IMG/VR virus record: IMGVR_UViG_3300035663_000128
Coordinates: 1-20,863 of that record
Source of the DNA: a virus
Length of the DNA: 20,863 nt
Reading direction: 5' to 3' (one strand)
Every line of letters begins with the position of its first letter. The stretch's first letter is position 1. Shown here one piece after another: positions 3,490-14,805 of this stretch. A program made the translations under genes and the position numbers. The notes beneath the pieces were generated by a model. That model was not told the origin of the DNA. It did not search any database and saw only the letters and a list, made by a program, of their open reading frames with translations.

Positions 3490-3888
3490 TTATTCCAGCT
3501 CGGCAACGGCTTCGGCCATCCGGCCAAGTCCGTCGCGTTTCGTGACGCGAAAGACGATTCGCGATTTGTTTTCTGGCTTCGGCCATTCCGGAAAAACGAT
3601 TGCCGGCGCGGTTGGCGCGTCTGGCAGTTTGATTTCGGGAATGGTCACGTTGATCTCGGGAGCTTGCGGCGGTTTCGCCAAAATTCCCTGCAACGCGGTG
3701 ATGATTTGCGCGAGGTTCGCGACGGCGGAAACCATGCTCGGAGAATCGGCCAGCGATTTCCGTTCGTGCTCGGCGACGGCCAGCGCCGTGCGAAGCTGCG
3801 GAATCTCCGCCGCCATGCGCTGCAGTTCCTCGGCGTGATGGAGTATAATCGCGCCCAACTGTTCTTCGTGGTCGGTCTTTGTGCTCAT
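3490..3888 (-). CDS. Small coiled-coil protein next to the portal
   Basis: A 132-residue protein of unknown function. Residues 1-75 are strongly helical (EEQLGAIILHHAEELQRMAA, then LRTALAVAEHERKSL), consistent with a coiled coil. Residues 75-110 form a Pro-rich linker (KPPQAPEINVTIPEIKLPDA), and the end (SRIVFRVTKRDGLGRMAEAV) looks like a short beta-hairpin plus helix. It starts one base after the portal stop codon, so it is probably translated with the portal. A scaffold or connector-associated role is possible by position, but nothing in the sequence proves it. Confidence 0.6.
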   Translation of the reverse strand: MSTKTDHEEQLGAIILHHAEELQRMAAEIPQLRTALAVAEHERKSLADSPSMVSAVANLAQIITALQGILAKPPQAPEINVTIPEIKLPDAPTAPAIVFPEWPKPENKSRIVFRVTKRDGLGRMAEAVAELE

Positions 3889-3889
3889 C

Positions 3890-6058
3890 TTAGTTGGTGC
3901 GATTTTTCAACGTCTCAAAAATCTCCGAAACTTTGCGGTAGATTTTAACCACGCGTTGCTGCTTGTCGATTTCTTCGAGCGTCGGCGAAGCGGTCTTGCA
4001 GAATGTCTTAAACACCTCGGCGGCGTCCTTGTTTTTGAGCAGAGCCTCACGAATCACGAACGGTTCAGCGTTAAGTTCCTTCGGCACTTCTTGCTTGTTC
4101 AAACGCTCAACGATGGCCGTCGCCCACGAATAGCCCTCGTCGCCTCCCCAGCCGTGCCACGCCTGCCAGCCCTTGCCTTGGTCCTTCCACGTCTCGCCCT
4201 GCTTGTCGGCTTGGTGGCGGTCGAAAAATGCCTTCATCCGGCGAACGGTGTCCTCGGACATTGGCCGCTTGTTCATGAGGTCGCGAGCGCGAGCAATGCC
4301 GATACTCGTCATGCCGCGCTGCGAGATTGGCTTTTGCTCGCGCACGTCGAGAGCGCGGCGAGCGTTTTCCGCCATCGCGTTTGTCGGAATGTAGGAGTCG
4401 GTCGCGAAGTTGATCGTGACGAGATTTGCGTCGTTCTGCACTTGTTGAACCGGCTCGATTGCAGCGGGTGCCGCCGCGACGCTCGCCGCCTGCGCCTCGG
4501 CTGCGCTTGCTCCCACCGCATCGCCTGCTGCGGCTGCGGCGGCTGGCGTGCTCGGGAGTGAGGTCGTCGTGAGGCGTATCGCCGTCTCTGGCACGCCGTA
4601 TTTGACCGCGAGTTCCTTCACGAATCCCGCTTCGATTGCGATCTGCTCCAGCCGCGAGAAAGCGTCGGTGCCTTCCTCGGCCGCGATCTCTTGCAGCGAC
4701 TTCGCGCCCTGCCGGTTCTCGTTCATGTTCGCGGCGCTCTCGCGGCCGACATCGATGCTGAGCTTGGCTGGGAAACGCCACTCGCCCTTGGTCGCCCGGC
4801 GCAGTGCCTGCACCATTGTCTCGCCCGCGAGCAGCGGAGGCGGTGCGATCTCGCCGCGTGCGATGGCGTCCAGAATCACGGCGTCCTTGATCGGGTCCAA
4901 AACCTTGTCGGTCAGCACGCCCTGCTGACGGGTGAACACGCGGTCAGCTGCTGCGAACTCAGCCCGAACGCTTGGGCCTTTGAAGTCGCTTGTGCCGAAC
5001 AAGACTCCCTCGGGTATGCCCACCGAGAGACTTATCTCGTGCATTAAGTGCTGCACGAATCCGGTGAAAGCCTGCGACGGCCTCGACGGCATTACTTCCA
5101 CGCGGTCGCTGTTCTGGAAATATCGAATCATGCCGACCTCGGTCAGCTCGTTCTTCTGCGTCTGACCGCTCGGCAATCCCATCGTCGGATTCGGCTGGAA
5201 AAGGTTGCGCGGGTTGGCCGTGCCTCGGTCGTTGAAGATCAGCGCCGCCTGCTGCGACGAGAAACGAACGCCGGCCTTTTCCGCCTGCAAGATTTCGTGC
5301 AGCATCCGCGCCGTTTGAATCCCGCTAGCCAGATCCGACACGCCTCGGTATTGGTCGCTGCGATTTGGATCAAAATAATGGCAGAACTGATTCGCCGGAA
5401 TGTCCTCGGCTCCGAAGTAAACGCCGTCTCGCGTGAGTCGGAAAATGCGGTAAGCGACGGGCTGGCCGAAGTCATTCGTGATAATCCCTTGGTAGTAATT
5501 GTTCGAGGCAACGGCTGACTCGTTCGGATTGCCGATGCGCGTCGCCGGCACGAGTTGCAGTTTCAAACCCTCGCCGCTGCGTCGGATCACGAAACCGCAG
5601 TCGCCGTCAATCGGACGTTCCTCGGCTGCGAGCTGCACGAGCTTTTTGAAGCTGTGCCGGTTCGTCACGTCGCAGTTTTTGCACCACGCGTGGAAATAGT
5701 CGTCGATTACGCGGTTGTAATCGCGGTCTCCGGTCGTCGGTGAGTATTCGTGCGGCGTCAGGTAGAGACCAAATTTGCGCGAGACTTCACGAATCTCCGG
5801 CGCGTTGTCCACGAGGTCCCGAGCTTCATACATGAGCACCACGCGGTCCCGCTGATTCTGCGAACTTTCGGCTGGCTGCGTGTATTGCTTGGGAGAATAC
5901 ATCCGGTTTGTCCGCGCCGCGTTATACTCAAACAGCGACTTCTGCACGCGAGCTTCGAGGCGACGCAACGCCCACGTCGGCGCGATGTTTTCCAGCGCAC
6001 GGTCAATCCACGGTTTATTTGCGACCAGTTTTGACGCGTCGAAAAAGTCGGTGCTCAT
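3890..6058 (-). CDS. Lambda-family portal protein with C-terminal extra domain
   Basis: Forms the dodecameric portal ring through which DNA enters the head. Residues 1-480 match the lambda gpB/Phage_portal_2 pattern: ARTNRMYSPKQYTQPAESSQ near residue 50, LVDNAPEIREVSRKFG near 82, ERPIDGDCGFVIRR near 147, and the HLMHEISLSVGIPEGVLFGT region later. An Ala-rich linker follows (about 505-545). Residues about 550-655 form a separate domain (SYIPTNAMAENARRALDV, GIARARDLMNKRPMSEDTVR, GWQAWHGWGGDEGYSWA), which I recall from phage head-maturation and structural proteins. At 722 residues it is well above lambda gpB (533 residues); the extra length is this tail. Its ATG is one base past the gpW-like stop. 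Portal identity is secure; the role of the tail is not known. Confidence 0.93.
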   Translation of the reverse strand: MSTDFFDASKLVANKPWIDRALENIAPTWALRRLEARVQKSLFEYNAARTNRMYSPKQYTQPAESSQNQRDRVVLMYEARDLVDNAPEIREVSRKFGLYLTPHEYSPTTGDRDYNRVIDDYFHAWCKNCDVTNRHSFKKLVQLAAEERPIDGDCGFVIRRSGEGLKLQLVPATRIGNPNESAVASNNYYQGIITNDFGQPVAYRIFRLTRDGVYFGAEDIPANQFCHYFDPNRSDQYRGVSDLASGIQTARMLHEILQAEKAGVRFSSQQAALIFNDRGTANPRNLFQPNPTMGLPSGQTQKNELTEVGMIRYFQNSDRVEVMPSRPSQAFTGFVQHLMHEISLSVGIPEGVLFGTSDFKGPSVRAEFAAADRVFTRQQGVLTDKVLDPIKDAVILDAIARGEIAPPPLLAGETMVQALRRATKGEWRFPAKLSIDVGRESAANMNENRQGAKSLQEIAAEEGTDAFSRLEQIAIEAGFVKELAVKYGVPETAIRLTTTSLPSTPAAAAAAGDAVGASAAEAQAASVAAAPAAIEPVQQVQNDANLVTINFATDSYIPTNAMAENARRALDVREQKPISQRGMTSIGIARARDLMNKRPMSEDTVRRMKAFFDRHQADKQGETWKDQGKGWQAWHGWGGDEGYSWATAIVERLNKQEVPKELNAEPFVIREALLKNKDAAEVFKTFCKTASPTLEEIDKQQRVVKIYRKVSEIFETLKNRTN

Positions 6059-8491: not shown

Positions 8492-9121
8492 TCACTCCCT
8501 CGACCGGTCCAGCGCCTCGGCCTCAAACGTCGCGATATTCGCGTTCACGACCTCGCGGATCTCGCTCAGAATCACGCCGCCCTCGACGTTTAGCTCTGCC
8601 GCGTTCATCCCGACGCCACGAGGACCGAGTTCGATTGTCAGTTTGAGCCGGAGGAGCAGGTCGAGCTTCTGGCCGAGCGTGACGAGCATCGCTTCGACTA
8701 CCTCCCGGTCAATCACGTCGCCGGCCTCGCGTTCGTTCTTCGACCGGGCGAGGCGGATTTGCTCGCGCATCAGCTCGGCTTTTAGGTCGGCGAGGTTCTT
8801 GGTCGCGGTGTCCTTGCCGATCAAGTGCTCGGCGCAAAACGCTTGCCACGCGGTTAAGTTCTCGCGCTTGCCGTCCTCGTGCTTTTTCGGTGCGTCTGGG
8901 AAGCGATTGCGAACGTCGTAAATGCCCTGACGCGACATCCCGAGCTCCTTCGCCAGTGCGCTAAGGTCTTTGACCCATCCGCCCGTCTGCTCGGCTTGAA
9001 ACTCGTTCAGCGCCTTGCGCTCGGAGGTCGTCAGCGTCTTGCCGGCCTTGAGCTTGACCGCGATGTTTTGGACGTTGCGGCGGGCGAGGATTTCGCTCGG
9101 TGATTGCGCGGCGTCGCTCAT
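8492..9121 (-). CDS. Terminase small subunit (Nu1-like)
   Basis: A DNA-binding partner that recognises packaging sites and loads the large terminase. The 209-residue chain has a clear helix-turn-helix at about 50-76 (VKDLSALAKELGMSRQGIYD), then a basic helical linker (LADLKAELMREQIRLARSKN) and a C-terminal segment (LLRLKLTIELGPRGVGMNAA) as in phage small terminases carrying an N-terminal Nu1-type winged helix. It is larger than lambda Nu1 (181). Its ATG overlaps the mom stop in an ATGA junction, so packaging is translationally coupled to DNA modification. It is separated from TerL by the RHH gene. Family confidence is good from HTH position and synteny. Confidence 0.85.
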   Translation of the reverse strand: MSDAAQSPSEILARRNVQNIAVKLKAGKTLTTSERKALNEFQAEQTGGWVKDLSALAKELGMSRQGIYDVRNRFPDAPKKHEDGKRENLTAWQAFCAEHLIGKDTATKNLADLKAELMREQIRLARSKNEREAGDVIDREVVEAMLVTLGQKLDLLLRLKLTIELGPRGVGMNAAELNVEGGVILSEIREVVNANIATFEAEALDRSRE

Positions 9122-9900
9122 TCAGAAGATTGGAGCGCCGGGGTCGGTGTCGAGCCGCCCTCTCCAGTCTGGAAGACTGGCGTGTCCGTGGTGTCACCTC
9201 CGGCGCGTGATTGGATTCTCTGCTTGCCCTTATACATCCCGGCACCTCGCTTGTCAATCTCGCTGAATGGCAAGATCGGAACGGTCAGGCGAGCGCGGGC
9301 GGTCGGGTCGAGAAAGTAGATGTAGCGGAGTTGGAAGCCGGGAACCGGCATCGCTCCAACGCGCTTGCGAAAAAGACTGAAAGGCTCGCCAAGTTTATAT
9401 CCCACCCGCTTTCTTAGATTTGCGGATGAAGCGCGAAGCCCAACGTCGGCAAAAATTAATCCGTCCGGCATTTTCCACATCGTGGTATTCTGCTTGATGC
9501 CCGTAAGGGCGAATCCGCTGGCCCTATAAATAGTTCCGTCCCCACATTGCGTGCCGTCCGCGAAGCTCACGACCCATTCGATGTGCGGGTAAGCCTTACG
9601 GATGAGCCGCATAGCCACGGCGATTGCTCTGCTTTCGGAATTGCGCGGTAACCAGTCCGCGAACGCCATCCGGTTTAACTCAATAAACCCGTTCCAGCCG
9701 GTGCCGTCAACAAGCGGCTGGATCGAACTTTTTTGGAGTGACGGTCCAAACTGCATTGCCCCGCCGCATTTACCATTGAGGAAAACGCCAAAGTGAAGAC
9801 TAGCGTTGATCGCGGAGATACCAGAATAGTGACACGCCTTAACAATCCGCGCCGCGTCCTGCGAGCTGATCGGCTTCACGACAATCTCTTTTGCGGTCAC
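9118..9900 (-). CDS. mom: Mom-family DNA modification protein
   Basis: A GNAT-like protein related to phage Mu Mom, which converts adenine in phage DNA to an N6-carbamoylmethyl (acetamido) form and protects it from host restriction. The conserved core is visible: KACHYSGISAINASLHFGVF at 21-40, GGAMQFGPSLQ at 46-56, GWNGFIELNRMAF at 68-80, LPRNSESRAIAVAMRLIRKA at 84-103, and WVVSFADGTQCGDGTIYRAS at 109-128. Length is 260 against 241 in Mu. The start is GTG at 9900, overlapping the ParB-like stop as GTGA; the stop overlaps the TerS start as ATGA. Unlike Mu, no com-like zinc-finger gene precedes it. The last 29 codons overlap a tRNA-like structure (9131-9206), so the C-terminal tail is atypical and may be a late addition. 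Substrate and exact product here are inferred from the family. Confidence 0.9.
   Translation of the reverse strand: MTAKEIVVKPISSQDAARIVKACHYSGISAINASLHFGVFLNGKCGGAMQFGPSLQKSSIQPLVDGTGWNGFIELNRMAFADWLPRNSESRAIAVAMRLIRKAYPHIEWVVSFADGTQCGDGTIYRASGFALTGIKQNTTMWKMPDGLIFADVGLRASSANLRKRVGYKLGEPFSLFRKRVGAMPVPGFQLRYIYFLDPTARARLTVPILPFSEIDKRGAGMYKGKQRIQSRAGGDTTDTPVFQTGEGGSTPTPALQSSE
9131..9206 (-). tRNA. tRNA-Gly(UCC)-like structure inside the 3' end of mom
   Basis: Read on the minus strand, 76 bases fold as a cloverleaf. The acceptor stem is a perfect 7 bp (GCGCCGG with CCGGCGC), followed by T and an encoded CCA. The D-arm has a 3-bp stem (GTG/CAC) with GGA in the loop. The anticodon stem is a perfect 5 bp (CCAGT/ACTGG) around CTTCCAG, giving anticodon UCC. 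The T-arm pairs at 5 of 6 positions around CTCGACA. G1-C72, C2-G71, G3-C70, U73, C35 and C36 agree with known bacterial glycine identity elements. Weak points: A at position 8 instead of U, C at 54 instead of T, a short variable loop, and an extra base pair in the T-arm. It may be functional, decayed or a captured tRNA end. Confidence 0.5.
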
Positions 9901-10493
9901 GGATTTGCCCGGTTGAATGATTGGCAGACGAACGCAAGACCGTTGCCGTTGCTGTTTTCGTTCACGCCGGATTCGCCGTGGCCCATTTGCTTCGCCTTGG
10001 CAATCGCCGCGTCAACGTCCTCGGCCTGCTCATCGTGAAGCGTGAACGTCTTTTGCTGGAATGGCTGTTTGTCCCCGCTTGCCAGTTCCGGCATCCCGAC
10101 CGCGTTGGCCGCAAATTGACCAAGGTCTTCCGGCGAGTAGCCAAGATCAGCCAAGTCAACGCCCTCGTCTTGTAGCGATTTCAAAACGTCGTTCAGCGAG
10201 TCCTCCCACTCCGCCAGCTCCGCCGTCCGATTGTCCGCAATGGCGAAAGCCGTAGCCTCAACGCCCGCCAGTTCGGTCCGCACGATCTGGATCTCGGTCC
10301 AGCCGAGTTCCTGCGCTGCGGTCAGCGTGCCGTTGCCGGCGAGGACGATGCCCTTGGCGTCCACGACGATTGGCTTTTGCTGCCCGAATTTGCGCAGGCT
10401 GGCTTTGATCGCGTCGAGATTCCGGCGCGAGTGTTTGCGGACGTTAGACGGGTCGAGCGAAAGCTCGGTGATTTTGGTCGTTGTTAGTTTCAT
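9897..10493 (-). CDS. ParB-like nuclease-domain protein
   Basis: A 198-residue protein with the ParB/Sulfiredoxin-like fold at 5-75: LDPSNVRKHSRRNLDAIKAS, FGQQKPIVV, GIVLAGNGTLTAAQELGW. GNGTLTAA corresponds to the GxGRxxA nucleotide-binding motif and is typical of the phage subgroup. Next comes IADNRTAELAEWEDSLNDVL, the linker that in many phages joins ParB to a DNA methyltransferase; here no methyltransferase follows. The C-terminus has TFTLHDEQAEDV and NENSNGNGLAFVCQSF, also recurrent in phage ParB proteins. It overlaps mom by GTGA, so the two products are made together. It may bind or target DNA for Mom, but this is inference. The ATG lacks a clear Shine-Dalgarno and follows a G-rich leader. 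Confidence 0.85.
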   Translation of the reverse strand: MKLTTTKITELSLDPSNVRKHSRRNLDAIKASLRKFGQQKPIVVDAKGIVLAGNGTLTAAQELGWTEIQIVRTELAGVEATAFAIADNRTAELAEWEDSLNDVLKSLQDEGVDLADLGYSPEDLGQFAANAVGMPELASGDKQPFQQKTFTLHDEQAEDVDAAIAKAKQMGHGESGVNENSNGNGLAFVCQSFNRANP

Positions 10494-11414: not shown

Positions 11415-11981
11415 TCACGAACGCGTTTCTGCCTCGCGCTCAATCACCGTCAGCCCGTTGTTCCGGTGCGTCCGGTAAACCACGCGCCACTGCGGCTCTA
11501 ACACCAGCCACTCGTCAATCGCCCGATTGATGCCCTCGCCGCCGTCGTCTCCCGTCACGCCGAACGTCTCGGTGTCGTGAAACACAATCCAGCGCCGTGC
11601 CGCGTCGCCGTGCAGCGCCAGCTCTTGCCGCACTTGGTCGTAGCGGTGCAGCGTGTCGATAAATAGCAGGTCGGTCGGCTCAATCTGCGAGATTGCCAGC
11701 GTGGAGCAGATGGAAAACACCCAATCCGTCGTCGTGTACGGGCGCATCGTCTTAAACACGCCGAACTGGTCGTTGATGTCGTAGCTGCGCAGCGTTGCTC
11801 GCTTCGTTCGCAGTCCGTGCAGAAACGCAAGCGTGCTGCACCCGGTCCGCACGCCGAATTCCGTCACCTGCTGGCATTGCGCCGCGAGTAGCGAGAGCAA
11901 AGGCAGATGCTCGTTGATGTCGCTCGGCATCCGCGTTGCGTGTTCGAGTGCCGTCGTTAGTTGGTCGTTTGTGTTTTTCAT
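11415..11981 (-). CDS. Class I SAM-dependent methyltransferase
   Basis: A 188-residue protein resembling the Methyltransf_24 family. Motif I is TEFGVRTGCSTLAFL at 40-54, the acidic residue of motif II is D68 in SYDIN, and the family signature DLLFIDTLHRYDQVRQEL at 104-121 is followed by IVFHDTETFG at 132-141. Members methylate varied small molecules or sugars; none of the DNA-methylase motifs (DPPY or PCQ) is seen, so a direct DNA methylase is not supported. The ATG at 11981 overlaps the helicase-loader stop as ATGA, which is why the longer upstream start at 12062 was rejected. Its substrate is unknown. Confidence 0.8.
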   Translation of the reverse strand: MKNTNDQLTTALEHATRMPSDINEHLPLLSLLAAQCQQVTEFGVRTGCSTLAFLHGLRTKRATLRSYDINDQFGVFKTMRPYTTTDWVFSICSTLAISQIEPTDLLFIDTLHRYDQVRQELALHGDAARRWIVFHDTETFGVTGDDGGEGINRAIDEWLVLEPQWRVVYRTHRNNGLTVIEREAETRS

Positions 11982-12844
11982 GGTTTGAATTGTTCTGGCA
12001 GTTTGAAAGTAACGCCTGAGCAAAGCTCGTTCAGCCGGCGCATGATGTCGTCGCCGAGACATTCCTCACCGAAGCGTCCACGGAGCTCCGCGCCTGTGAA
12101 TCGGGTCGAGAGCACGACTGGAAGCCCGCGCCCATAGCGCTTGTCGAGCACCTCCCAGAACAGCGCGGCCATCGCCGGCGTGCTCTTTTCCTTCCCGAGG
12201 TCGTCAATCATCAGCACCGAGCAGCCGCAGAGCCATTCGACCTGCTCGATGTCGCGTGCCGCCTTGCTCAAGATTCGGCCCAGCTCGACCGCGTTGAGCG
12301 TGACGGGTGCCCGGCCCTCGCGCTCCAGCTCCCGCGCAAGTGCCCAGTAAGCCGTCGTCTTGCCGCTGCCGCTCGGCCCTTTCATCGCGATGCCTTTGCC
12401 GTTGCTCGGACGCCACGCCTTGACCCGCTCGAACGCCGCCCTGTCCACGTTCGCCGGCAGCGCCCCAAAGATCGCGTCTCGTAGCTTGGCCGGGCAAGCC
12501 TCGTCCCATTTCGGCGTCGCGCTCGTGGCCATCTGCTCGTGTGCGGCGCCGTCGTAGTGGATTCGGACCAGCTCCATGCAGTCATCGCAGACCGAGACGG
12601 GCAACGTTACGACCGACCCCAGCAGTTCGTGCTGCGTCGGCGTCGCGTCGAGATGCTGAGCGCAGCCCCGGCAGACGGGTTGGCCGAATTCCCATTCGGC
12701 GCGAGTTCCCGAGCCCCACGTGTTCGCCAGCCGCGTCTCCCAGCGCGTGCGCTGAGCCGGGTTGAATTCGCACTTCAGCCCAGTAAGCCGGGCGACGTTG
12801 CGAGCCTGCACCTCGCCGAATGGCGTTTCAGAGCGTGTAACCAT
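11978..12844 (-). CDS. DnaC/IstB-like replicative helicase loader
   Basis: An AAA+ ATPase that would load the host or phage DnaB-type helicase at the origin, equivalent in role to lambda P. Walker A is GPSGSGKT at 156-163, Walker B is VLMIDDLGKE at 210-219, sensor 1 is LSTRF at 245-249 (R instead of the common N), and the conserved DDIMRRLNELC at 265-275 carries the arginine box. The N-terminus has paired cysteines (CRGC 58-61, CDDC 86-89), likely a zinc-binding module for helicase contact, as in DnaI/DnaC relatives. Length is 288. The gene overlaps the initiator gene by 17 bases, so initiator and loader are made together. Confident as an ATPase loader. Confidence 0.92.
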   Translation of the reverse strand: MVTRSETPFGEVQARNVARLTGLKCEFNPAQRTRWETRLANTWGSGTRAEWEFGQPVCRGCAQHLDATPTQHELLGSVVTLPVSVCDDCMELVRIHYDGAAHEQMATSATPKWDEACPAKLRDAIFGALPANVDRAAFERVKAWRPSNGKGIAMKGPSGSGKTTAYWALARELEREGRAPVTLNAVELGRILSKAARDIEQVEWLCGCSVLMIDDLGKEKSTPAMAALFWEVLDKRYGRGLPVVLSTRFTGAELRGRFGEECLGDDIMRRLNELCSGVTFKLPEQFKP

Positions 12845-13676
12845 GTGCGCGTGCCTCCAGTTCGTAGGTTGAGGTTCCGCCCGGTTTCTGACCGGAGTTC
12901 AAAAACTGATTCGGCTTGTCGCAAAGCGCCCAGTTCTTTGCGAGAGCGTTCGGCGTAAGAACGCTTTCGCGCATGTGGGTCCGGTAGTTCTTCGCCCGGC
13001 GCGTGATTTCGTCTGGGCTTACGTCTGGGCAAACTCCGCGAATTTCTTCCAGCGCTTTGCCGATGCCTGACCAAGCCGAGGCGACCACTTGCAGCGGGTC
13101 AGCGCCTCCGCAGCCAGCGAGAGCGTCCATGAGCAGATTGCGACTCGGCTTTGATTTTGCGGGTTTTTCAGGCGGAAGCCCCGGCAAACCTCCTTGCAAC
13201 TGAAAGTCGGAGCCGGGAACCGGCATCTCTGTTTTCTTTTCTATTACTCTTTCTCTTTCTATTACTATTACGTTAGGTTCCTGCTTGGGTTCTGCTTGGG
13301 TTCTGCTTGGGTTATGCTTCGCTCCGTTGGCCTTCGATGCCTCAATCTTTGCTTGGGTTCGTGCTTGGCCTCCCTTGCGACCAGCCTCGCGCTTGCGTTT
13401 GATTTCGTCCTCCAAGTCAGACGGATAACCCCAGACTCGAAGATCGTCGTCTTGCCAACCCATGAGGCTTTGCGCCCCGTCGATTTCCTCACGCGTTACG
13501 CCGCAGACCTGTTGCCACTGTCGATCTTTCCACGTCTTGCAGCCGGCGATGAGTCCGCCGTTTTCTTGCTCGTAGCAATAGCCGAGCACGGCCACCCATG
13601 TCCCGCGAGCCGTTGGGTCGGAGCCGATAAATTGCGGAGCGCGAAGGTCCGACGTTTTGATATTGATCCAATTCAT
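12828..13676 (-). CDS. Replication initiator-like protein (lambda O position)
   Basis: Starts MNWINIKTSDLRAPQFIGSD and contains TWVAVLGYCYEQENGG and WKDRQWQQVCGVTREEIDGA, a winged-helix-like N-terminal DNA-binding domain seen in phage replication proteins. Residues about 88-155 are a basic, low-complexity hinge (KRKREAGRKGGQARTQAKIE). The C-terminal part contains EITRRAKNYRTHMRESVLTP, resembling the helicase-loader interaction regions of phage initiators. It lies directly before the DnaC-like gene, as O precedes P in lambda. Direct repeats and an AT-rich tract occur within its hinge-coding part (13231-13368). A GTG at 13715 with GAGG 6 bases upstream is an alternative start adding 13 residues; ATG 13676 is preferred because MNWI is the typical family beginning. 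Function is inferred from position and pattern. Confidence 0.75.
   Translation of the reverse strand: MNWINIKTSDLRAPQFIGSDPTARGTWVAVLGYCYEQENGGLIAGCKTWKDRQWQQVCGVTREEIDGAQSLMGWQDDDLRVWGYPSDLEDEIKRKREAGRKGGQARTQAKIEASKANGAKHNPSRTQAEPKQEPNVIVIERERVIEKKTEMPVPGSDFQLQGGLPGLPPEKPAKSKPSRNLLMDALAGCGGADPLQVVASAWSGIGKALEEIRGVCPDVSPDEITRRAKNYRTHMRESVLTPNALAKNWALCDKPNQFLNSGQKPGGTSTYELEARAHGYTL
13231..13368. other. Candidate replication origin inside the initiator gene
   Basis: An AT-rich tract (31 of 40 bases A/T at 13231-13270, strongly pyrimidine on the plus strand) adjoins direct repeats at 13281-13368. Both lie within the initiator coding sequence, and the next gene is a helicase loader. This is the arrangement of lambda ori, where iterons and an A/T-rich unwinding region are inside O and P follows. 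The location and composition are seen directly; origin function is inferred. Confidence 0.6.
13281..13368. repeat. Iteron-like direct repeats
   Basis: Three perfect, contiguous copies of an 11-base unit, CTGCTTGGGTT, occupy 13281-13313. The 10-base core TGCTTGGGTT recurs at 13350-13359, and a 7-base partial copy TGCTTGG is at 13362-13368. The 11-base period is about one helical turn, so bound proteins would face the same side. Eleven is not a multiple of three, so the repeats are read in three different frames, which argues for selection on DNA rather than protein. Confidence 0.8.
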
Positions 13677-13829
13677 AAAAAAAACCCGCCCAGCTTTTGC
13701 GGTAGAAATTGGCACACGATGCGCCTCGCAAAAACTGAACGGGTAAATTGTTGGTTGATAATCATCGCACTTCGGCTTTCTACGGCCTGCTCCTTGTTTA
13801 CGCTTTGCGCTCGCCGGGTAAAGGCAAAT
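13677..13829 (-). promoter_or_regulatory. Leader/control region of the initiator gene
   Basis: A 153-base gap between the resolvase and initiator genes. It contains GTTGATAATCA (13754-13764 on the plus strand), an 11-mer also present at 20030-20040 before the early operon. CGGGTAAA occurs twice (13740-13747 and 13815-13822). On the minus strand AGTTTTTGCG (13736-13727) can pair with CGCAAAAGCT (13701-13692, one mismatch), followed by GGGCGGGTTTTTTTT directly before the ATG. This looks like a leader hairpin or attenuator, but no promoter with a good consensus is obvious. Confidence 0.4.
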
Positions 13830-14291
13830 CTACGTCGCCGCCTCCACCCCGAATCGCTCCACGCTCACATAGACCCCAATCCTCGCGTCGGTTATGGCCC
13901 AGAACTTGTCAACGCGTAGTAGTGCGACCTGCGAATCATCCCGCCAAATCCGCCCGCTCCGCGTGATGCGGTCGAGCACCAGCTTGGCAAGATTGTCCGC
14001 GTCCGGCTTGCTGACGTGGCAAATGGGTGCGCTGGCTTTGACGTGTCCGCCCTTGCCATAGTGCGACTTCGGCCGCCGGAAAAAGAACGTCAGCTTGCAC
14101 TCGAACGCTCCGACCGGATCGAGTGCCCCCGCCGCCTTTAGCTCGCGCTCAATCCCGATGTCCACCGCCCGCTTCCACGCGTCGGCCACGTCGCTGTCAT
14201 ACATCCGCGCAACGTGCTTCGCGCCCATCTTCCGAGCGAAGGCTCGCGCTCGCGGTTGGCCCTTCGGGTCGCCGAAAATAAACGTGTTCAT
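13830..14291 (-). CDS. rusA: RusA-family Holliday junction resolvase
   Basis: Cuts four-way DNA junctions made during recombination and resolves branched DNA before packaging. The family signature KPDADNLAKLVLD at 95-107 supplies D97 and D99, and WRDDSQV at 116-122 supplies D119, matching E. coli RusA D70, D72 and D91. The N-terminus (FIFGDPKGQPRARAFAR) has the expected beta strand and basic loop. Length 153 is slightly above RusA (120). The ATG has GGAGGA 7 bases upstream and overlaps the preceding 101-residue gene as ATGA. Placement between the RecT/RecE block and the initiator suits a recombination-dependent replication programme. Confidence 0.93.
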   Translation of the reverse strand: MNTFIFGDPKGQPRARAFARKMGAKHVARMYDSDVADAWKRAVDIGIERELKAAGALDPVGAFECKLTFFFRRPKSHYGKGGHVKASAPICHVSKPDADNLAKLVLDRITRSGRIWRDDSQVALLRVDKFWAITDARIGVYVSVERFGVEAAT

Positions 14292-14593
14292 TCGTCATCC
14301 TCCCATTTGCCAATCGTGCGGAGAAAAGCCTCGGCGCGTTGGGCGGCGGTGGCGTCAATCGGATGTTGCTCGTCGCATACCTCCGCTAGTGCCGTTTTGT
14401 ATCTACCGAATCCGCCTGTCTGGTTGTAATGTTCACCCCGGCTCAGCACCATCTCCGCTTGGTGCATGGCGTTCAAGTCGTTGAGGTAGTTGGGGGTGAA
14501 CTCCGCGACGAGTTGCCCCAATTCGTCCGAGTATTCGCTCCATTTGAAGCCACACGCTTTCGCGATGGCTATACGTTGTCGATGGGGTTTCAT
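14288..14593 (-). CDS. Conserved phage protein of unknown function
   Basis: A 101-residue protein starting MKPHRQRIAIAKACGFKW. The pieces PNYLNDLNAMHQAEMVLS and ATAAQRAEAFLRTIGKW are familiar from early regions of many phages, where this small protein has no assigned function. It appears to be a compact helical protein. It is in a run of 4-base overlaps, ATGA with the gene before (14590) and with rusA after (14288). The function cannot be stated; its position suggests an accessory role in replication or recombination. Confidence 0.75.
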   Translation of the reverse strand: MKPHRQRIAIAKACGFKWSEYSDELGQLVAEFTPNYLNDLNAMHQAEMVLSRGEHYNQTGGFGRYKTALAEVCDEQHPIDATAAQRAEAFLRTIGKWEDDE

Positions 14594-14805
14594 TTCTTCG
14601 CTCCCTTCCGCAGCCAGACGAGATGGTCCCGCTCGGCCGGCGTGATGCGGTGCAGCGCCAGTCCGAGCCGCCGCGCCCGTGCGTGGACATTGCTCAACGT
14701 GGCGCCGCGTAGGTTGCGAACGATCTCGCTCGGTGACTGCATTTCCATTAGTCGCCGGTCGATCTCAGAATTCGTTTTTTGGTGCTGTGATTTTGACCTT
14801 ACCAT
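14590..14805 (-). CDS. Small basic protein with possible HTH
   Basis: A 71-residue protein with MEMQSPSEIVRNLRGATLSN and VHARARRLGLALHRITPAER, which looks like a single helix-turn-helix or a small basic DNA-binding unit (SPSEIVRNLRGATLSNVHARARRL pattern split by a turn). The ATG at 14805 has AAAGG about 6 bases upstream. It overlaps the upstream membrane-protein gene by 41 bases, longer than the other junctions, so an internal start at 14748 is a possible alternative. The stop overlaps the next gene as ATGA. Confidence 0.55.
   Translation of the reverse strand: MVRSKSQHQKTNSEIDRRLMEMQSPSEIVRNLRGATLSNVHARARRLGLALHRITPAERDHLVWLRKGAKK

Follow-up and report, generated by a model that had tools for sequence, protein, structure and literature searches.

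A candidate replication origin embedded in the linker-coding region of a phage initiator gene

The linker between the two domains of a phage replication initiator very probably contains, in its coding sequence, the replication origin of the phage, as judged from the arrangement and conservation of the DNA. The window is an IMG/VR phage record of 20,863 bases. Within its initiator gene, the stretch coding for the linker carries 11-bp AACCCAAGCAN repeats with an AAGC every 11–12 bp, followed by a strand-asymmetric, purine-rich tract.

Iterons and purine-rich tract in the initiator gene

The initiator gene lies on the minus strand at 12828–13676 and encodes 282 residues from an ATG start, comprising a winged-helix N-terminal domain, a linker with the origin-like DNA and a C-terminal domain. 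A profile search matched residues 1–156 to phrog_3926 ("replication initiation protein", E 9.4e-7); the C-terminal half is left uncovered, and the family name is silent on an embedded origin. The next gene downstream (11978–12844, minus strand) encodes a DnaC-like helicase loader, an AAA+ protein of the IstB_IS21/DnaC type (E 4.1e-11; phrog_50, E 1.9e-19), so that the gene calls made from the letters alone, an initiator-like gene followed by a DnaC-like loader, hold. On the upstream side, the neighbouring gene of the operon (13830–14291, minus strand) encodes a RusA Holliday junction resolvase (PF05866, E 4.4e-19). Pfam searches with the initiator and ten relatives returned no informative family. 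The scan of 12500–14600 for promoters and terminators, with the sigma-70 consensus as the only promoter model, gave nothing above chance, and single-strand folding of the region revealed no structure beyond chance (z −0.06). Elsewhere in the window, a Mom-like DNA modification protein is encoded at 9118–9900 (minus strand; phrog_1384, E 7.6e-46) by a gene that overlaps by 4 bases with that of a ParB-like protein (9897–10493), with the small terminase adjoining.

The AlphaFold2 model of the N-terminal domain (pLDDT 92) has the helix-helix-helix-beta-wing order of a winged-helix domain, and the linker is predicted to be disordered, with pLDDT under 50 for residues 134–164. The folds ranked best for the N-terminal model are the N-terminal domains of the RepA_N initiators 4pql, 5kbj and 4pt7 (Z 4.9, rmsd 3.4 over 78 residues), a weak match that is tied with unrelated winged helices and is therefore taken as a hint only. 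Foldseek searches with the full-length and N-terminal models yielded nothing with an E-value of 0.001 or lower, and no RepA_N Pfam domain matched the initiator at E 0.1.

The repeats and the tract fall at residues ~104–149, between the confidently predicted N- and C-terminal helices. Three perfect tandem copies of the 11-mer CTGCTTGGGTT, all of which the sequence-only reading had placed at 13281–13313, are present at 13281–13291, 13292–13302 and 13303–13313, and a search of the whole window found perfect copies at this site only. Given the minus-strand orientation of the gene, the repeat reads AACCCAAGCAG on the coding strand, where the tract is purine-rich. An upstream iteron, AACCCAAGCAA (13349–13359, minus strand), is a copy with one mismatch (TTGCTTGGGTT) and has its AAGC at coding nt 322; a degenerate iteron, GGCCAAGCAC (13361–13370, minus strand), includes the partial copy GTGCTTGG at 13361–13368 and has its AAGC at coding nt 310, with the next AAGC 12 bp away. 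Both of these had been listed in the sequence-only reading as a fourth copy and a partial one, but a further core in register, GGAGCGAAGCA/T at 13314–13324 (minus strand), had been overlooked; it is recognizable as ATGCTT at 13314–13319 and places an AAGC at coding nt 357. AAGC cores are found at coding nt 310, 322, 357, 368, 379 and 390 (within nt 310–401), the last three belonging to the perfect 11-mers. The repeats exceed chance: TRF reports a period of 11 with 3.9 copies and a 93% match, and the lag-11 self-match of 30/33 was reached by 0/2000 codon shuffles (maximum 23 at the best lag of 7–30) and by 0/2000 synonymous recodings (maximum 27).

On the coding strand the iterons continue into AACGTAATAGTAATAGAAAGAGAAAGAGTAATAGAAAAGAAAACAGAG. 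A junction element, GGAACCTAACG (13271–13280, minus strand), leads from the half of the last iteron into the tract, and the tract itself, GTAATAGTAATAGAAAGAGAAAGAGTAATAGAAAAGAAAACAGAG (13224–13271, minus strand), is purine-rich on the coding strand and A+T-rich, and forms the putative unwinding and strand-loading region. It ranks first among the 40-mers of the window for AT-richness, low stability and purine/pyrimidine asymmetry alike, and the AT block at about 13230–13270 is 77.5% AT within a window of 60% GC.

Conservation among relatives and selection on the DNA

A protein-only search of viral contigs found 99 relatives of the initiator, of which 80 were kept, giving 47 non-redundant genes. 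The N-terminal domain is well conserved among them, with an invariant WKDRQWQQ region, and is followed in all of them by a KRxxGxxGG motif, after which come the repeat-bearing linker and then the purine tract. Related phages with the same initiator and neither repeats nor tract at this position had been named as the finding that would speak against an origin; in the 47 relatives, phased repeats and a purine tract are kept between the N- and C-terminal domains.

The repeats at the linker position are AAGC iterons, either 11-bp direct or 12-bp palindromic, with other repeats in a few genes. Class A, with 11-bp direct AACCNAAGCAN repeats, accounts for 24/47 genes, and class B, with palindromic AAGCNNNGCTT at period 12 or with AAGCAAACGCTT, for 15/47 by a loose automatic rule; the remaining 8/47 are a mixture of degenerate forms and others, including the ACCAACGTTGGT type of L077, which is found in Akkermansia phages too. 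The iteron type designated class C is ACCNACGT. AAGC is common to classes A and B, and the 11-mer units keep their AACCNAAGC core in every codon phase, with the last base variable. Spacings between neighbouring AAGC in the linkers peak at 11 bp (85), 12 bp (56) and 23 bp (20), and the phasing of 11–12 bp holds where the intervening bases differ. The linkers contain 256 AAGC, versus a mean of 131 and a maximum of 149 after synonymous recoding.

Searches of viral contigs with exact motifs recruit by the motif itself and for this reason were kept out of the frame statistic described below; 60/75 and 50/53 of the matches listed belong to the initiator family, and the rest are in some cases truncated or out-of-frame family members and in others chance matches in unrelated genes. 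At the DNA level, the initiator–loader region matched nothing among the annotated phage genomes. Another phage contig, L190, carries at ~3780–3900 an array of TAACCCAAGC(A) 11-mers without a long open frame, which may be a non-coding origin that uses the same site. At ~1490–1690 of L162, an initiator-like gene has a linker with a long ACCCA(C/T)GGGATACCCA-type array plus copies of AACCCAAGCA.

In six long relatives (37–39 kb; 6/6 records), the tract leads all 40-mers of the record in purine/pyrimidine asymmetry, but it is rarely the most AT-rich or the least stable one. Comparison of these records indicates that the conserved property is purine strand asymmetry and not maximal AT content. The term AT-rich tract used in the sequence-only reading thus fits the block in the window gene, at 77.5% AT, but for the family "polypurine-polypyrimidine tract of lowered GC" is the better term.

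Since the repeat unit is 11 bp, every iteron gained or lost shifts the downstream reading frame. An anchor consisting of ACG plus GAA, TAATAG, AAATAG or AAAAG could be set in 40/47 relatives, and the junction element (AACGGAAAGGAAAGG type), whose AACG anchor keeps the iteron register, is distributed over the three codon phases in 16, 14 and 10 of these 40. The same DNA consequently encodes EPNVIVIERERVIE, STQRNSNSNSNSNR, NPTEREREWEE or LERKGKERN, and the peptides at the junction and tract read ...PNGKER..., ...PTERKG... or ...LERKGK... depending on the frame, with VIVIERER in one case versus NSNSNSNR in another. With the anchor columns excluded, cross-frame DNA identity is 0.514, versus 0.341 (sd 0.008, maximum 0.357) in synonymous recodings, and peptide identity between frames is only 0.23, which excludes a purely protein-level cause. 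The argument previously made for the repeats, that an 11-base period is out of step with the codons and makes a protein-level cause unlikely, is extended by the occurrence of the downstream tract in all three frames. The frame comparison indicates that selection at the junction and tract preserves the DNA rather than the protein.

Phased, partly palindromic sites beside the gene of a DNA-binding protein would look much the same if they were operators, with the initiator or a repressor regulating its own operon and the purine tract being neutral or translational. We consider this improbable, since the sites lie ~300–400 bp inside the coding sequence and not at a promoter, the sigma-70 consensus scan of 12500–14600 found no promoter-like match, and a set of operators would explain neither why a purine tract stays attached to the last repeat whatever the frame nor why this tract ranks first in purine asymmetry in each long genome.

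Cassette exchange and proposed mechanism

The window gene and that of L006 are 96–100% identical from the start codon through the domain, the iterons and the start of the tract, and are unrelated thereafter. In the comparison with L003, the domain and iterons differ and the sequences are 86–100% identical (mostly 93% or more) past the tract. The domain of L045 closely matches that of L072 (~90% identical), but the iterons are of class A and class B, respectively. Module breakpoints are located at or just after the tract in the pairs formed by the window gene with L006, L003 and L010. The genes downstream across the family encode DnaC-like loaders (the largest group), DnaB-type helicases and Toprim primase-helicases; L006-type genes precede a DnaB-type helicase, the neighbour in L007 matching Pfam DnaB_C with an E-value of 8.7e-50. 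The breakpoints, taken with the differing downstream genes, indicate that the DNA-binding domain brings the origin-like DNA along with it and that the two are combined with various helicase-recruiting modules. The alignments show the N-terminal winged-helix domain, iterons and tract moving together as one cassette and the C-terminal domain being exchanged along with the downstream loader or helicase. The product of the window gene at 11415–12062 (minus strand) has weak similarity to a DNA methyltransferase profile; in the L015 group, a gene resembling it directly follows the initiator, and no DnaC-like loader is found there.

Breakpoints at or just after the tract in these three pairs are also what would be seen if the tract, together with the iterons, were mainly a recombination joint for swapping the C-terminal helicase-recruiting module. 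We regard this as very unlikely, since any origin cassette would have breakpoints there and the iterons of L045 and L072 have changed while the domain stays ~90% identical, and since neither the phasing of the iterons nor the fact that the swapped unit is always the DNA-binding domain plus its repeats is explained by a joint. It is highly improbable that the linker grew by replication slippage as a hydrophilic, low-complexity spacer of the protein, with the DNA repeats as a by-product, as its predicted disorder, its KGKERKGKE-like tracts resembling slippage products and the seemingly homogenised units within one gene (all CAG in the window gene, mostly CAC in L002) might suggest, because the pattern is lost in synonymous recodings, the same DNA in three frames gives peptides as unlike as VIVIERER, NSNSNSN and TERERE, and the 11–12 bp phasing of AAGC persists despite differing bases in between.

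For the linker as an initiator-embedded origin, we infer binding, melting, helicase loading and the start of replication at this site. The N-terminal winged-helix domain would bind AAGC-centred sites one helical turn apart (11–12 bp), and several copies of the initiator would assemble into a phased complex on the iterons. This complex would open the adjoining purine/pyrimidine-asymmetric A+T-rich tract, aided by transcription through the gene; a pyrimidine-rich template and a purine-rich transcript favour stable hybrids. The C-terminal domain would deliver the helicase, via the DnaC-like loader in the window phage and as the phage-encoded DnaB-type helicase in some relatives. A more speculative proposal, which we put forward only tentatively, is that the tract, far from being passive AT-rich DNA that unwinds, is a sequence-specific single-strand element with repeats of 5–6 nt (such as GTAATA, GGAAA and GAGAAG) in fixed register to the last iteron, and that the initiator or loader captures it as DnaA captures its own repeats at bacterial origins. 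The domain, iterons and tract would then constitute a mobile origin cassette which, among Verrucomicrobiota phages, has been combined time and again with different helicase-recruiting modules.

Cumulative GC skew, which had been suggested as a further check, lends no support. In the window, its extremes are several kilobases away from the gene, and in the six long relatives they are not consistently near it; GC skew was rejected as origin evidence.

Known initiator-embedded origins and phage hosts

In lambda ori, too, iterons are followed by a purine-asymmetric, A+T-rich tract midway through gene O, between its DNA-binding and loader-recruiting halves (PMC5043065, PMC6022878), and a review describes the A+T-rich part as strand-asymmetric in purines (PMC5043065). 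The coding strand is the purine-rich strand in both systems, and a helicase-loader gene is directly downstream in both, the DnaC-like AAA+ protein here being the functional counterpart of P and not a P homologue. Lambda has four 18–19 bp inverted repeats, whereas the repeats in the window are 11-bp and direct, AAGCNNNGCTT 12-bp palindromes occurring in relatives only; the loader of the window phage is, unlike that of lambda, a DnaC/IstB-like AAA+ protein. The purine asymmetry of the tracts is 0.875–0.975, versus 0.80 in lambda, and they are usually less AT-rich than that of lambda; the value of 0.80 is the score of the best 40-mer in O and is exceeded at four other places in the lambda genome. 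When the N-terminal profile was compared by hhalign with lambda O, represented by a single sequence, the probability was 0.2%. The initiator locus would appear to work like lambda O/ori, but membership in the lambda O family is not supported by the hhalign comparison. Of the lambda-like origin first proposed, what stands is the layout, with iterons and tract inside the initiator gene and the loader next to it.

In RepA_N plasmids (pSK41 Rep), the initiator has a winged-helix N-terminal domain and a modular C-terminal domain, and the ori boxes are located where rep encodes the linker (PMC5703833). Origin-like DNA within the region coding for an interdomain linker is thus common to these plasmids and the window phage, which differs from them in having an operon with its own loader or helicase. 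Phage initiators of the Lin1244/Lin1753 type (PF14297) have an N-terminal domain of another family; in a single case, L163, the linker carries AACCCAAGCAAAACCCAAGCA after a GRKGGKSR motif. The initiator-like gene of L163 (Lin1244_N, PF14297) contains the 11-mer AACCCAAGCA twice in its linker, at ~nt 1150–1190 of the reverse complement, and the recurrence of this 11-mer in another family may represent convergence or a shared site. A search of the openly accessible literature found no paper describing this origin.

The protein search of annotated phage genomes found the initiator gene in only three, the cultured Akkermansia phages Chantilly, Chambord and DTMo-2021a. The gene is annotated as "hypothetical" in Chantilly and Chambord, where it lies directly before a DnaB-like helicase and has RusA upstream as well, and the order RusA, initiator, DnaC-like or DnaB is recurrent in Akkermansia phages. 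The search of genome contigs found only two relatives, one of them in a betaproteobacterial MAG and probably misbinned. The initiator is present in 15/388 genomes of the phylum to which an Opitutales MAG belongs; in that of the betaproteobacterial MAG it is present in 1/386 genomes, namely the same MAG. The linkers of the relatives in Verrucomicrobiota genomes keep the layout with repeats that are different again; L230 and L241 have quite different 12-bp repeats (CGTCACGCAATG; GATGCAAATGCA) at the same linker position. Because the relatives are concentrated in Verrucomicrobiota, a host from this group is likely for the window phage.

The conservation of the junction and tract in three frames is an unusual natural experiment that separates selection on the DNA from selection on the protein without recourse to the bench. 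That strand purine asymmetry, and not AT content, appears to be the conserved property of the presumed melting tract bears on the open question of how origins of this kind are opened. A candidate origin can now be assigned in a large group of phages, most of them uncultured, to which the cultured Akkermansia phages with their "hypothetical" gene also belong.
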